NCBI RefSeq assembly: GCF_000158815.1
Contig: NZ_GG657738.1
Coordinates: 2,106,551-2,170,550 of the forward strand
Origin: Micromonospora sp. ATCC 39149
Lineage (GTDB): Bacteria > Actinomycetota > Actinomycetes > Mycobacteriales > Micromonosporaceae
Direction of reading: 5' to 3'
Length of the DNA stretch: 64,000 bases
Below the pieces are notes generated by a model. It saw nothing but the letters and a program-made list of their open reading frames with translations. It was not told the DNA's origin and ran no database searches. Shown here piece by piece: positions 19,242 through 47,475 of this stretch; within the stretch, counting starts at the first letter, position 1, and each line of letters starts with the position of its first letter. A program made the translations under genes and the position numbers.

Positions 19242-20396
19242 TCAGCGGAACGGGCCACGCACCTCGTAGGTGATCCCGCCCGAGGACGAGCCGGAGGTGC
19301 CCCGCTGGGAGGAGAAGTAGAGCCGGGTGCCGTCCGGGGAGAAGGCGGGGCCGGTGATCTCGGACGAACTCTGGCCGGTGATCCGGAGGAAGGGCGCGAC
19401 CACCTCGTCCGGAGTGATGACGTTCATTTCCATGTTGCCGCCGTCCTCGGCCACGTACAGGTCCCCGGAGCGGGCCCCGACGATGTTGTCCACCCCGGTC
19501 AGGGGAGCGCCGCCGCCGGCCACCAACGAGTCGTCGTACGCCAGGTCGATGCGCTGCGCGACCGCGTCGTACGCCCAGACCCGGTTGTCGCCCTTGGTGG
19601 TGAACCAGCAGGTCCCGTCGGCGTACCAGCAGCCCTCGCCGCCGTTGAACTTCTTCGCGCCGGAGACCTGCTGGCGGGTGTACGTCGGCGAGCCGTCCGG
19701 GTCCGGCACCCGGGCCCAGGTGACCGGGCCGCTGGTGGCGGTGCCGGCGACCAGCACCTCCAGGGTGCCGGCGGACAGGTCGCCCCAGACGGTCGGCCGG
19801 AACCGGTAGAAGCAGCCGCTCGACTCGTCCTCGGTCAGGTAGATGACCTGTCGGACCGGGTCGGCCGCCGCCGCCTCGTGCTTGAACCGGCCCAGCGCCG
19901 GCCGCTGCACCGCCGTCGTGCCGCCCTGCGGGTACGTCTCGTAGACGTACCCCCGGCTGACCTCCTCGCAGGAGAGCCAGGTGCCCCACGGGGTCGCGCC
20001 GCCGGCGCAGTTCTGGTTGGTGCCGGACAGGATCCGGTACGCCGCCGCGATGGTCCCGTCGGCGTTGAATCGCACCGCCGACGCCCCACCCCCCGGGGTG
20101 ATCTCGGAGTTCGAGACGTAGATCCAACCGGTTCCGGCGGGGAAGCAGGCCCCGCCGTCGGGGGCGTCGTGCCACGAGTACGTGGTGCCGGCGACCACCT
20201 GTCGGGAGCGGGCGACCACCCGGCTGGTGAACCCGGCGGGAAGCTGGATGCCGTTGCCGTCGGCGGTGCCCAGGGGCCCGTACGGTCCCGCGCCGGGCTG
20301 GGCGGGGGCGGCCAACGCGGCGGACGACCAGAGGCTGCCGGTGAAGGCGGCGGCCCCTCCGGCGGCGGTGGCGCGCAGCAGCGTACGACGATCCAT
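19242..20396 (-). CDS. PhoX-family (DUF839) Tat-exported protein
   Basis: 384 residues with a twin-arginine signal (MDRRTLLRATAAGGAAAFTG). The mature part is the DUF839/PhoX beta-propeller: WHDAPDGGACFPAGTGWIYV, SNSEITPGGGASAVRF, WLSCEEVSRGYVYE, KHEAAAADP, YLTEDESSGCFYRFRP and FNGGEGCWY. Alkaline phosphatase PhoX of other bacteria has this fold and Ca/Fe ligands in such acidic loops, but many DUF839 proteins are uncharacterised. ATG 20396 has GGAGG six bases upstream. Phosphatase activity is inferred only. Confidence 0.82.
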   Translation of the reverse strand: MDRRTLLRATAAGGAAAFTGSLWSSAALAAPAQPGAGPYGPLGTADGNGIQLPAGFTSRVVARSRQVVAGTTYSWHDAPDGGACFPAGTGWIYVSNSEITPGGGASAVRFNADGTIAAAYRILSGTNQNCAGGATPWGTWLSCEEVSRGYVYETYPQGGTTAVQRPALGRFKHEAAAADPVRQVIYLTEDESSGCFYRFRPTVWGDLSAGTLEVLVAGTATSGPVTWARVPDPDGSPTYTRQQVSGAKKFNGGEGCWYADGTCWFTTKGDNRVWAYDAVAQRIDLAYDDSLVAGGGAPLTGVDNIVGARSGDLYVAEDGGNMEMNVITPDEVVAPFLRITGQSSSEITGPAFSPDGTRLYFSSQRGTSGSSSGGITYEVRGPFR

Positions 20397-20488
20397 TCGA
20401 ACCTCCAGGCGATGGCGTGTGCGGCCGAAGCTACCGAGCAAGACATCGATGAAGGTGAACGCGAGGCGAGGCTTTCCCGACGACCGGA

Positions 20489-20517
20489 TGAGCCTTTCCC
20501 GCTACGTCGGGTACGCT
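20489..20517 (+). promoter_or_regulatory. Putative promoter of the aromatic leader and DAHP synthase
   Basis: TACGCT at 20512-20517 fits a TANNNT -10 box, and seven bases later comes the GTG of the leader peptide, the usual spacing of a leaderless actinobacterial transcript. TGAGCC (20489-20494) is a weak -35 candidate at 17 bp. Confidence 0.5.
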
Positions 20518-20524
20518 GGTCGGC

Positions 20525-20590
20525 GTGACGCGGTCGTATCGATGGTTTAGGCAGCCGGCTGGAGGAGCCGGTGACTTCACCATGATCTGA
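20525..20590 (+). CDS. Aromatic leader peptide upstream of DAHP synthase
   Basis: A 21-residue frame from GTG 20525 to TGA 20590: VTRSYRWFRQPAGGAGDFTM then I. It carries Tyr (TAT), Trp (TGG) and Phe (TTT) within four codons, then another Phe. TAT and TTT are very rare in this genome. The stem-loop at 20555-20571 starts six bases after the Phe codon, and an intrinsic terminator follows at 20614-20641. This is the layout of a ribosome-mediated attenuator in which uncharged aromatic tRNAs stall the leading ribosome. Translation is inferred. Confidence 0.6.
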   Translation: MTRSYRWFRQPAGGAGDFTMI

Positions 20591-20641
20591 CGTCACTCCT
20601 CTTCGAGCCGGCCGGGCAGGGGCCTGAATCCCTGCCCTTTT
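20555..20641 (+). promoter_or_regulatory. Attenuator: leader hairpin and intrinsic terminator ahead of DAHP synthase
   Basis: CCGGCT (20555-20560) pairs with AGCCGG (20566-20571), loop GGAGG. CCGGCT-GGAGGAG can instead pair with CTCCTC (20596-20601) and AGCCGG (20606-20611), an alternative long stem. The terminator is GGGCAGGG (20614-20621) with CCCTGCCC (20630-20637) followed by TTTT, one of the few T-tailed terminators in the window, and it stands 68 bp before the start codon. Which fold excludes which is not resolved by eye. Confidence 0.65.
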
Positions 20642-20708
20642 GCGTACGAGCAGCCGGCTCGACCTCGGGCGCCGGCCCCGGGGCACGGTCGGCGGAAGGA
20701 ATCCCACC

Positions 20709-21812
20709 GTGACGACCCCGGACAGCCATCGCGTGATCGACCAGCGGATCGACCGCGTCGTGCCGTTGACCACCCCGGCCCTGCTGCACCACCACCTGCC
20801 CCTGGACGCCGCGCTCACCGAGGCCGTGCTCGACGGCCGGCGCGCGGTCGCCCGGGTGCTGGACCGCGCCGACGACCGGCTGCTGGTCGTGGTCGGTCCG
20901 TGCTCGGTGCACGACCCGGCCGCCGCCCTGGACTACGCGGCCCGACTGCGCTCCGCCGCCGACCGGTTCGCCGACGACCTGCTGATCGTGATGCGGGTGT
21001 ACTTCGAGAAGCCGCGTTCCACGGTGGGCTGGAAGGGCCTGATCAACGACCCGGGGCTGGACGGCTCCGGTGACGTGAACACCGGCCTGCGCACCGCCCG
21101 CGCGCTGCTGCTCGACGTACTGCGGCTGGGCCTGCCGGTGGGCTGCGAGTTCCTCGACCCGATCACCCCGCAGTACATCGCCGACACCGTGGCGTGGGGC
21201 GCGATCGGTGCCCGCACCGTGGAGAGCCAGGTGCACCGGCAGCTCGCCTCCGGGCTGTCCATGCCGATCGGCATGAAGAACCGCCCCGACGGCAGCATCG
21301 GCACCGCCGTGGACGCGATCCGCGCGGCCGGCGTCCCGCACGTCTTCCCCGGCATCGACGTCTCCGGCACCCCGGCGATCATGCACACGCGGGGCAACGC
21401 CGACGGCCACCTCGTGCTGCGCGGCGGCAACGACGGCCCGAACTACGACGCCGTCTCCGTCGCCGCGGCGCTGGCGCAGCTGCGCGCGGCCGGCCTGCCG
21501 GAGCGGATCGTGGTCGACGCGAGCCACGCCAACAGCGGCAAGGACCACCGCCGCCAGCCGTTGGTCGCCGCCGACGTCGCGGCCCAGCTCGCCGCCGGCC
21601 AGCGCGGCATCGTCGGCGTCATGCTGGAGAGCTTCCTGCTCCCGGGCCGGCAGGAGCTGGACCCGACGCGCGAGCTGGAGTACGGCCGCTCGATCACCGA
21701 CGCCTGCCTGGGCTGGGACACCACCGAGGAGGTCCTCGACGCTCTGGCCACCGCCGTCCGCGCCCGCCGCACCACCCCGGCCTCCACCCCCACCATCCCC
21801 ACCCCCGCCTGA
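20709..21812 (+). CDS. 3-deoxy-7-phosphoheptulonate (DAHP) synthase, class I
   Basis: Condenses phosphoenolpyruvate and erythrose 4-phosphate, the entry to the shikimate pathway. 367 residues of the AroF/G/H type: VVVGPCSVHDPAAALDYA, VYFEKPRSTVGWKGLINDP, IGARTVESQVHRQLASGLSM, GMKNRPDGS, VDASHANSGKDHRRQ and GVMLESFLLPGRQ. GTG 20709 follows GGAAGGA by nine bases; an extension to 20640 would begin in the terminator and is rejected. Most Streptomyces-type actinomycetes use a class II enzyme, so this may be a second isoenzyme. It is preceded by an aromatic leader peptide and terminator. Confidence 0.92.
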   Translation: MTTPDSHRVIDQRIDRVVPLTTPALLHHHLPLDAALTEAVLDGRRAVARVLDRADDRLLVVVGPCSVHDPAAALDYAARLRSAADRFADDLLIVMRVYFEKPRSTVGWKGLINDPGLDGSGDVNTGLRTARALLLDVLRLGLPVGCEFLDPITPQYIADTVAWGAIGARTVESQVHRQLASGLSMPIGMKNRPDGSIGTAVDAIRAAGVPHVFPGIDVSGTPAIMHTRGNADGHLVLRGGNDGPNYDAVSVAAALAQLRAAGLPERIVVDASHANSGKDHRRQPLVAADVAAQLAAGQRGIVGVMLESFLLPGRQELDPTRELEYGRSITDACLGWDTTEEVLDALATAVRARRTTPASTPTIPTPA

Positions 21813-46791: not shown

Positions 46792-47475
46792 TCAGGCGGT
46801 ACGGGCCACCGCGGGGTCCCCGGCCGACCAGCCGCCGCCCGGGGTGGCGTCACCGGGCCAGCCGCCCGGCGCGGCGTCCGCCGCCGGGCGGGCCCGGGGC
46901 CCGTCCCCGGCCGACCAGCCGGCCGGCCGTTCCCCCGCCGACCAGCCCTCGGGGCCGGCCCGAGACGCCCACTCGTCCGCCCGGGTCTCGGCGGCTGACT
47001 CCGCCGACGGCGGCTCCGGGGGGTACCGGAGCCGGGCCACCTCGTCGAACGCCTGGAGCCCGCCGAGCAGGGCCTGTCGCCCCTCGGGGGTCATCCCGGA
47101 CAGGATCGCCGCCAGCCGCTGCCGGCGGTCGGCCCGCAGCTCGGCGAGGAGCTTCTCGGCCTCCTGCGTGAGGTGCAGGGAGATCTCCCGCCGGTCGGAC
47201 CGGCCCGGCTCGCGCTCCAGCATGCCCGCCGCCACCAGCCGGTCGCAGAGCCGGCTGGCCGAGGAGAGCAGCATGTCGAGCAGCGTCGCCAGCCGTCGCA
47301 GGTTGATCCCGTCGTGCTGCTCGACCACCATCACGGCGCGCAGTTGCGCGCCGGAGAGCCGGCTCGTGGTCCGCTCGCGGGCCGCCTCGAAGACCGTGAG
47401 CAGGGTGCCGGCCGCCGCATCGAGGGCGGCGGCCATACTCGCTTCTGGTCCCTGGGGACCGTGTTCTTCGGCCAT
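46792..47475 (-). CDS. MarR-family regulator with repetitive C-terminal tail
   Basis: 227 residues. The winged helix (LRAVMVVEQHDGINLRRLAT, LLDMLLSSASRLCDRLVAAG, MLEREPGRSDRREISLHLTQ) is MarR-like, residues ~30-140. The last ~75 residues are low-complexity with three GWSAG motifs separated by Pro/Gly/Ala. ATG 47475 is used. Divergent from the PP2C-type phosphatase across 60 bp, so it may regulate it. Confidence 0.85.
   Translation of the reverse strand: MAEEHGPQGPEASMAAALDAAAGTLLTVFEAARERTTSRLSGAQLRAVMVVEQHDGINLRRLATLLDMLLSSASRLCDRLVAAGMLEREPGRSDRREISLHLTQEAEKLLAELRADRRQRLAAILSGMTPEGRQALLGGLQAFDEVARLRYPPEPPSAESAAETRADEWASRAGPEGWSAGERPAGWSAGDGPRARPAADAAPGGWPGDATPGGGWSAGDPAVARTA

Follow-up and report, generated by a model that had tools for sequence, protein, structure and literature searches.

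The class I (AroFGH-type) 3-deoxy-7-phosphoheptulonate (DAHP) synthase gene of Micromonospora sp. ATCC 39149 is preceded by what, judged from sequence comparison, is an aromatic leader-peptide control element of a known general kind; its new properties are that it is tri-aromatic, that its codons can be re-coded according to the target gene, and that its long stem abuts the terminator. We consider it quite probable that this element exerts attenuator-like, leaderless, ribosome-sensed control of the DAHP synthase gene through charged Tyr, Trp and Phe tRNAs. Two hallmarks of leader-peptide control are present, end-product codons clustered in a short frame and an intrinsic terminator between leader and gene, and, as in the aroR system of Corynebacterium glutamicum, a leader peptide with aromatic codons lies directly before a DAHP synthase gene. 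Among relatives the comparison shows a conserved frame, codon set, promoter spacing, long stem (P1) and terminator, and a codon set that depends on the enzyme encoded downstream.

All features of the locus lie on the forward strand of the 64,000-nucleotide stretch that was analysed (the window). A −10 box of the TANNNT type, TACGCT (20512–20517), stands 7 nt upstream of the GTG start of the leader frame, a spacing that implies a leaderless transcript; aroR of C. glutamicum is reportedly leaderless. The leader frame (20525–20590, stop codon at 20588–20590) encodes VTRSYRWFRQPAGGAGDFTMI and is kept in relatives. Its regulatory codons, TAT CGA TGG TTT (Tyr-Arg-Trp-Phe, 20537–20548), include the synonymous codons TAT and TTT, which had been called rare and are so in the window, where 71 high-GC3 open reading frames (not curated genes) have TTT as 12 of 495 Phe codons and TAT as 16 of 433 Tyr codons. 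Within the frame lies arm 1, the 5' side of P1 (AGCCGGCTGGAGGAG, 20553–20567), and arm 2 (20565–20572) could form a small hairpin with it; the 3' side of P1 is arm 3 (CTCCTCTTCGAGCCGGC, 20596–20612). Immediately 3' of P1 is the intrinsic terminator, GGGCAGGGGCCTGAATCCCTGCCC followed by TTTT (20614–20641, hairpin plus four T), and 3' of that is arm 4 (GCAGCCGGCTCG, 20650–20661), which can pair with arm 3 and thereby exclude P1. A Shine-Dalgarno-like GGAAGGAA (20694–20701) precedes the GTG start of the DAHP synthase gene (20709–21812), whose product matches PF00793 with 285.8 bits and TIGR00034 (aroFGH) with 472.5 bits (cut-off 173.2). The TANNNT box, GTG frame, hairpin and T-tailed terminator that the initial annotation had placed before this gene were thus all found where it had put them. 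A scan of 20380–20760 gave a single terminator-like hairpin with four T (20614–20637), where 0.1 is expected from shuffled sequences, and no sigma-70-type promoter, and the folding z-score of 20526–20715 is −2.66.

The leader region is single-copy in the genome, and R1, a covariance model whose training set was 28 leaders, all of DAHP synthase genes, has one match there. A weak R1 match at 47012–47060 of the window (E 0.055) is probably a chance GC-rich stem. At gathering cut-offs Rfam (release 15) detects nothing in the window but a tRNA, and in 20450–20760 it gives no family at E values up to 1, so that a known Rfam family was rejected as the identity of the element. The query DAHP synthase protein matches only itself in its own genome; elsewhere there are one class II DAHP synthase and another class II match that is split in two, and the 450 nt before either hold no short open reading frame with more than one aromatic per six codons, so an aromatic leader before the class II enzymes was rejected.

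A DAHP synthase match was found in every genome sampled from the genus (151 of 151); the figure was 62 of 91 for the family, 46 of 111 for the order and 26 of 148 for the class. The leader is present in named relatives, among them Micromonospora haikouensis, Paractinoplanes, Catellatospora, Kribbella, Amycolatopsis, Rhodococcus, Nocardia and Streptomyces sp. 150FB. Short open reading frames that pack all three aromatics into six codons lie ahead of 119 of 158 actinobacterial whole-genome loci and ahead of 17 of the 22 named actinobacterial loci, compared with 3 of 790 and 0 of 110 of the respective dinucleotide shuffles and 10 of 721 random windows. A catalogue of 172 loci, which omits three where no leader was seen (L007, L020 and L036), contains YRWF 70 times, YWRF 16 times and YFWF 11 times, as well as FYWFGW, WYSWF, WYAYF and others; it takes the most aromatic short frame of each locus, so these counts lean upward. 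The codon order varies by genus (YRWF, YWRF, YFWF, FYWF, YYWF, WYSWF, WYAYF) while the Tyr/Trp/Phe set is retained, which argues for selection on amino-acid identity and not on a nucleotide motif. Less inclined to lean, although most R1 training leaders hold Trp, is the set of covariance-model matches with a boxed leader (six matches without a boxed start were left out), in which 80 of 101 distinct DAHP synthase leaders contain Phe, Tyr and Trp; for 21 of these 101 the sequence stretch is short and the DAHP synthase is known from the place from which it was fetched. Some genomes are represented twice among the loci (L001/L082, L021/L132 and L028/L196), and since the relatives are not independent the p-values given here are guides.

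Promoter spacing is equally regular: TANNNT stands before the leader start in 134 of the 172 catalogued loci, exactly 7 nt away in 112 and 6 nt in 22, with at most three loci for any other spacing up to 39 nt. Leader starts of the chorismate mutase, model-matched and Trp-less sets discussed here were chosen for having a −10 box, so those sets do not test it. Codon choice is conserved as well, since among 107 distinct tri-aromatic leaders Phe is TTT in 112 of 130 cases and Tyr is TAT in 108 of 113, while a dereplicated subset of the DAHP synthase genes themselves has TTT 7/179 and TAT 1/160. Beyond the regulatory codons frame and peptide diverge (PAGGAGDFTMI in one leader, PARTPVTSP in another). 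Comparison of relatives had been proposed as the check on the leader, and it finds the codon cluster kept together with the box; the expectation that a tri-aromatic leader would be unusual fails, as such leaders are widespread in actinobacteria, not peculiar to this genome, and also present outside the phylum.

Trp is missing from 19 of the 101 distinct DAHP synthase leaders (YPYF, YRYF, YQRF and others), and YPYF, YRYF or YSYF account for 11 of the 18 distinct Trp-less peptides. One clade has Trp-less DAHP synthase leaders of the YPYF, YRYF, YSYF and SSYF types (L162–L165, L167, L168, L170, L171, L244–L251, L255, L256, L258, L259, L262 and L265). We note that several class I DAHP synthase loci have no R1 match at E 0.001 (L007 and L036, both from Nocardiopsis, and L160, L161, L166, L169 and L174). 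One genus carries three or four class I copies per genome (L117–L121, L210, L211); there the copies closest to the query (L117–L121) show no leader, and L210, from one such genome, has YFWF.

P1 is formed by arm 1, which lies in the frame just 3' of the regulatory codons, and arm 3, just 3' of the stop codon, so that the stop codon sits in the apical part of the stem; P1 ends 0–5 nt before the terminator. The initial annotation had looked to compensatory changes in the stems for support, and in an alignment of 28 leaders double compensatory changes affect 9 of 14 P1 pairs and 8 of 10 terminator pairs. In this alignment 92.6% of cells are paired, against 83.0% when shuffled and 38–53% when slid, and 17 pairs have double changes against 9.3 when shuffled. 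When each arm's own partner was compared with swapped partners from other leaders, arm 1:arm 3 gave z-scores of −10.2 (42 leaders, after eight loci were left out before dereplication) and −9.8 (36 leaders, six more being left out); with each of the two sequence types taken alone the values were −5.6 and −5.7. Arm 3:arm 4 also covaries in DAHP synthase loci (z −6.5 with 42 leaders, −6.3 with 36, −4.9 and −3.2 inside the two types), as does arm 4 with arm 5, 3' of the terminator (z −3.9). Because arm 3:arm 4 pairing covaries in DAHP synthase loci but not before chorismate mutase genes (z 0.0 in 24 dereplicated loci), it was rejected as a core element, and arm 1:arm 2 was rejected as a conserved hairpin (swap z +1.4). 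In the chorismate mutase loci P1 itself shows little covariation (z −1.7, p 0.05). A U-tailed hairpin was scored in 138 of 159 loci, at least seven of these being another hairpin mis-scored; the Rhodococcus, Nocardia and Amycolatopsis types have a direct arm 3:arm 4 hairpin, and no U-tailed terminator was seen in them.

R1 matches were found in 53 of 296 genomes of the class; the locus search covered L001–L004 but not most Micromonospora loci (L081–L115, L220–L239). Of 30 loci returned from the class search 29 had a DAHP synthase, and the remaining one, L272, lies before a chorismate mutase fusion gene, and its leader, VLQAYFAF, lacks Trp; L272 is among 102 model-matched sequences, so the counts become 101 DAHP synthase and 40 chorismate mutase leaders. 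Ten more genomes, which all belong to a single family, likewise have the element before a gene whose product contains a chorismate mutase domain; in most cases this domain is joined to a truncated DAHP-synthase-like one (Pfam on two such proteins gave PF01817 and a partial PF00793). When that family was sampled more densely, 45 of 90 genomes proved to carry the element, and among 47 loci classified from the pooled class and family searches 39 precede a chorismate mutase, assigned by tblastn to one domain and by Pfam for the two proteins only, and 8 a DAHP synthase. The chorismate mutase-linked loci with Phe/Tyr leaders are L272 (from another family), L274–L277, L279–L284, L294, L297–L301, L303, L306, L307, L309, L310, L312, L314–L316, L318, L319, L321, L322, L324–L326 and L328–L334. 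Two weak R1 matches (L288 and L289, E near 8e-4) have neither a DAHP synthase nor a chorismate mutase gene downstream.

Chorismate mutase commits chorismate to Phe and Tyr, not to Trp. In the family set the 39 chorismate mutase leaders have Phe in 39 cases, Tyr in 24 and Trp in one, as against Trp in 6 of 7 readable DAHP synthase leaders (Fisher p 5e-6 for Trp); with L272 included the figures for chorismate mutase leaders are Phe 40, Tyr 25 and Trp 1 (n = 40), and over all loci Trp is found in 88 of 108 DAHP synthase leaders versus 1 of 40 (p 1e-19). The bias to rare codons is weaker in the chorismate mutase leaders (TTT 37/61, TAT 16/24). Since Trp is frequent in DAHP synthase leaders and nearly absent before chorismate mutase, the codon set follows the products of the downstream enzyme, and the simplest reading which the sequences suggest is that every leader monitors what its own downstream enzyme helps to make. 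Speaking against this reading are the 19 of 101 Trp-less DAHP synthase leaders, which lie outside that family, and the lineages are not independent. The two gene contexts amount to a natural codon-swap experiment, which argues for amino-acid sensing, and because it is Trp and not Phe that is nearly absent before chorismate mutase, the case for sensing of all three aromatics, as the initial annotation had proposed, is strengthened. That proposal also draws support from the conserved codon set and stems.

Similar leaders occur outside the actinobacteria. At least four aromatic codons in seven stand before the DAHP synthase gene in 23 of 58 non-actinobacterial loci, 19 of them with all three kinds (MSAKFYFYFFWYLRPLADREG in Burkholderia and FYFWYYGF in Xanthomonas are examples), and all three aromatics fall within six codons in 20 of the 58, compared with 14 of 290 shuffles. 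Such Phe/Tyr/Trp-rich leaders, proteobacterial apart from one Anaerolineae, are L019, L030, L032, L033, L037, L039, L041, L042, L050, L054, L056–L059, L061–L066, L068, L071 and L078, most of them with a leader arm that is complementary to the terminator. R1 gave weak matches to two (L032, L039) of ten aromatic-rich non-actinobacterial loci searched. The Burkholderia, Xanthomonas and other proteobacterial leaders resemble the query in their Phe/Tyr/Trp clusters before a class I DAHP synthase and their U-tailed terminator, but differ from the actinobacterial form in having the classical layout, with a leader arm complementary to the 5' arm of the terminator (an exact complement of at least 7 nt in 15 of 22 non-actinobacterial leaders, which are 21 proteobacterial and one Anaerolineae; one of 23 gave no terminator).

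Mutual exclusion of the two stems by base pairing, which is what the folding test covers, was assessed by folding nascent transcripts in silico while a stretch the size of a ribosome was masked, either at the stop codon or at the first or the last of the aromatic codons. The terminator probability was 0.95–1.0 in all ribosome states (20 representatives), and none of 36 actinobacterial leaders showed a terminator drop of more than 0.2 on stalling, the largest being 0.14 (L155) and 0.11 (L001). The same folding made 9 of the 22 non-actinobacterial leaders, all from Burkholderia, Paraburkholderia or Caballeronia, lose the terminator when stalled, and so is able to see classical layouts. An overlapping antiterminator was therefore rejected for the actinobacterial leaders, since P1 and terminator share no bases and 0 of 36 terminators were lost; a weak preference of arm 1 for its own terminator (z −2.1) remains. 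The folding model thus does not support a textbook antiterminator for the actinobacterial form, which is not filed as a classical trp-type attenuator, P1 abutting an intact terminator, and pairing does not account for how stalling would lead to read-through. The "alternative longer pairing" of the initial annotation exists, as P1, and covaries, but does not exclude the terminator by pairing. The last aromatic codon is Phe in 33 of 36 leaders and lies a median of 2 nt before P1; a ribosome halted on Phe would sit over the base of P1, which a stall at Tyr would leave uncovered.

In the mechanism we favour, the transcript would start at or beside the GTG and the frame would be translated. When Tyr, Trp or Phe is short the ribosome would stall within codons 5–8, just upstream of arm 1, allowing arm 1 to pair with arm 3 as P1 and transcription to read through; when aromatics are plentiful it would reach the stop codon near the apex of P1 and melt the stem, and the adjoining U-tailed hairpin would terminate. 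P1 would then antagonise the terminator by abutting and not by overlapping it. It is translation, stalling, the direction of regulation and this antagonism that we infer. The leader is almost certainly translated, and it very probably senses aromatic amino acids; Trp is likely among the sensed residues, the leader probably acts on termination, and the chances that P1 is the antitermination partner appear about even. That a long stem formed on stalling, lying directly beside a terminator that stays intact, prevents termination through contact or stacking, on a scaffold re-programmed by codon swaps, is a tentative proposal and somewhat doubtful.

It is very improbable that the reading frame is fortuitous and the element a structured RNA or a site to which a protein binds: P1 and the terminator are indeed strongly conserved as RNA, and frame and peptide vary 3' of the codons, but the start lies 6–7 nt after the −10 box, Tyr and Phe codons have a synonymous bias, the codon set tracks the downstream enzyme, and the Rfam search, extended to E values of 1, gave no family. 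Sensing of Phe and Tyr only, or of Phe alone, with Trp as a passenger, would account for the Trp-less DAHP synthase leaders and would resemble C. glutamicum aroR, which has F-Y-F (PMC4046766) and reacts to Phe and not Tyr (PMC11802643). Against it, Trp shifts its position and yet is retained in DAHP synthase leaders, with the bias relative to chorismate mutase leaders given above, and we regard a passenger role as unlikely.

Two alternatives concern the output. A classical attenuator of the E. coli trp type, in which stalling releases an arm able to pair with the terminator's 5' half, has the complementarity and terminator loss of the non-actinobacterial leaders in its favour, and actinobacterial arm 1 binds its own terminator slightly better than a swapped one (p 0.018); the intact terminators of all 36 actinobacterial leaders and the end of P1 before the terminator make it distinctly improbable here. 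Rho loading sites are C-rich and U-poor. A translated leader may sense aromatics but act through Rho-dependent termination or through translation of the DAHP synthase, with the U-tailed hairpin as a pause site or constitutive partial terminator; the stretch between stop codon and terminator has the composition of such loading sites (C 0.43, G 0.24, T 0.08 in 36 leaders) and P1 would hide it, the U-tracts are short, arm 3:arm 4 and arm 4:arm 5 covary in DAHP synthase loci, and the Rhodococcus, Nocardia and Amycolatopsis-type leaders pair arm 3 directly with arm 4 and have no U-tract. For control of translation there is in addition a slightly lower predicted access to the DAHP synthase ribosome binding site with P1 (0.42 versus 0.45, Wilcoxon p 0.04; the start codons used here are script-made guesses, a few of which, as in L006 and L141, look wrong), but this difference is small, and the absence of arm 3:arm 4 covariation from chorismate mutase loci and the conservation of the U-tailed hairpin with compensatory changes oppose both forms of this explanation. 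We therefore judge it rather unlikely, with Rho involvement a live alternative to the favoured control of intrinsic termination.

If control by a tri-aromatic leader is real, actinobacteria can measure all three aromatic end products directly where the shikimate pathway begins, and can do so in genera known for aromatic natural products. A fixed scaffold would then be read out with Tyr/Trp/Phe before the first common enzyme and with Phe/Tyr before chorismate mutase. Its non-overlapping layout raises the question whether a helix that stands beside a terminator, and does not compete with it, can prevent termination.

Among known systems, the E. coli ilvGMEDA and thrA leaders each sense several pathway end products. 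The element described here would be like them in this, although theirs are other amino acids and they have a classical overlapping antiterminator. An attenuator of aroF that senses Tyr-tRNA is listed in one source (PMC2659441). Of two surveys, that of Actinobacteria in 2005 reported that conserved RNA structures were absent ahead of phenylalanine and tyrosine operons (PMC1262725), and that of S. lividans listed eight leader peptides, none of them before a DAHP synthase gene (PMC8079986). Searches of open-licence papers turned up no account of a tri-aromatic leader before a DAHP synthase gene or of a leader before a chorismate mutase gene. The closest precedent found for the adjacency of the hairpins is the ilvBNC attenuator of C. 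glutamicum, whose leader peptide starts one nucleotide from the transcript start and contains branched-chain codons, and whose terminator and antiterminator hairpins lie side by side and share a boundary GCC trinucleotide that switches partner (PMC11857589); the query-type leaders are alike in their adjacent hairpins and in the predicted position of the leader peptide near the transcript start, but a shared P1/terminator boundary of this kind was found in none of 36. The aromatic leader before a Corynebacterium DAHP synthase gene, which the initial annotation had cited, is aroR before aroF, with an F-Y-F leader peptide (Mentz 2013, PMC4046766) in which, as a review relates from Neshat 2014, Phe matters and Tyr does not (PMC11802643). 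Both aroR and the query have a short aromatic-codon leader peptide before a DAHP synthase gene, with attenuation proposed. They differ, by published description and not by sequence, in that no Trp is described for aroR, whereas the query set includes it, and in that the query-type element has a scaffold that is defined by covariation and is common to chorismate mutase genes.
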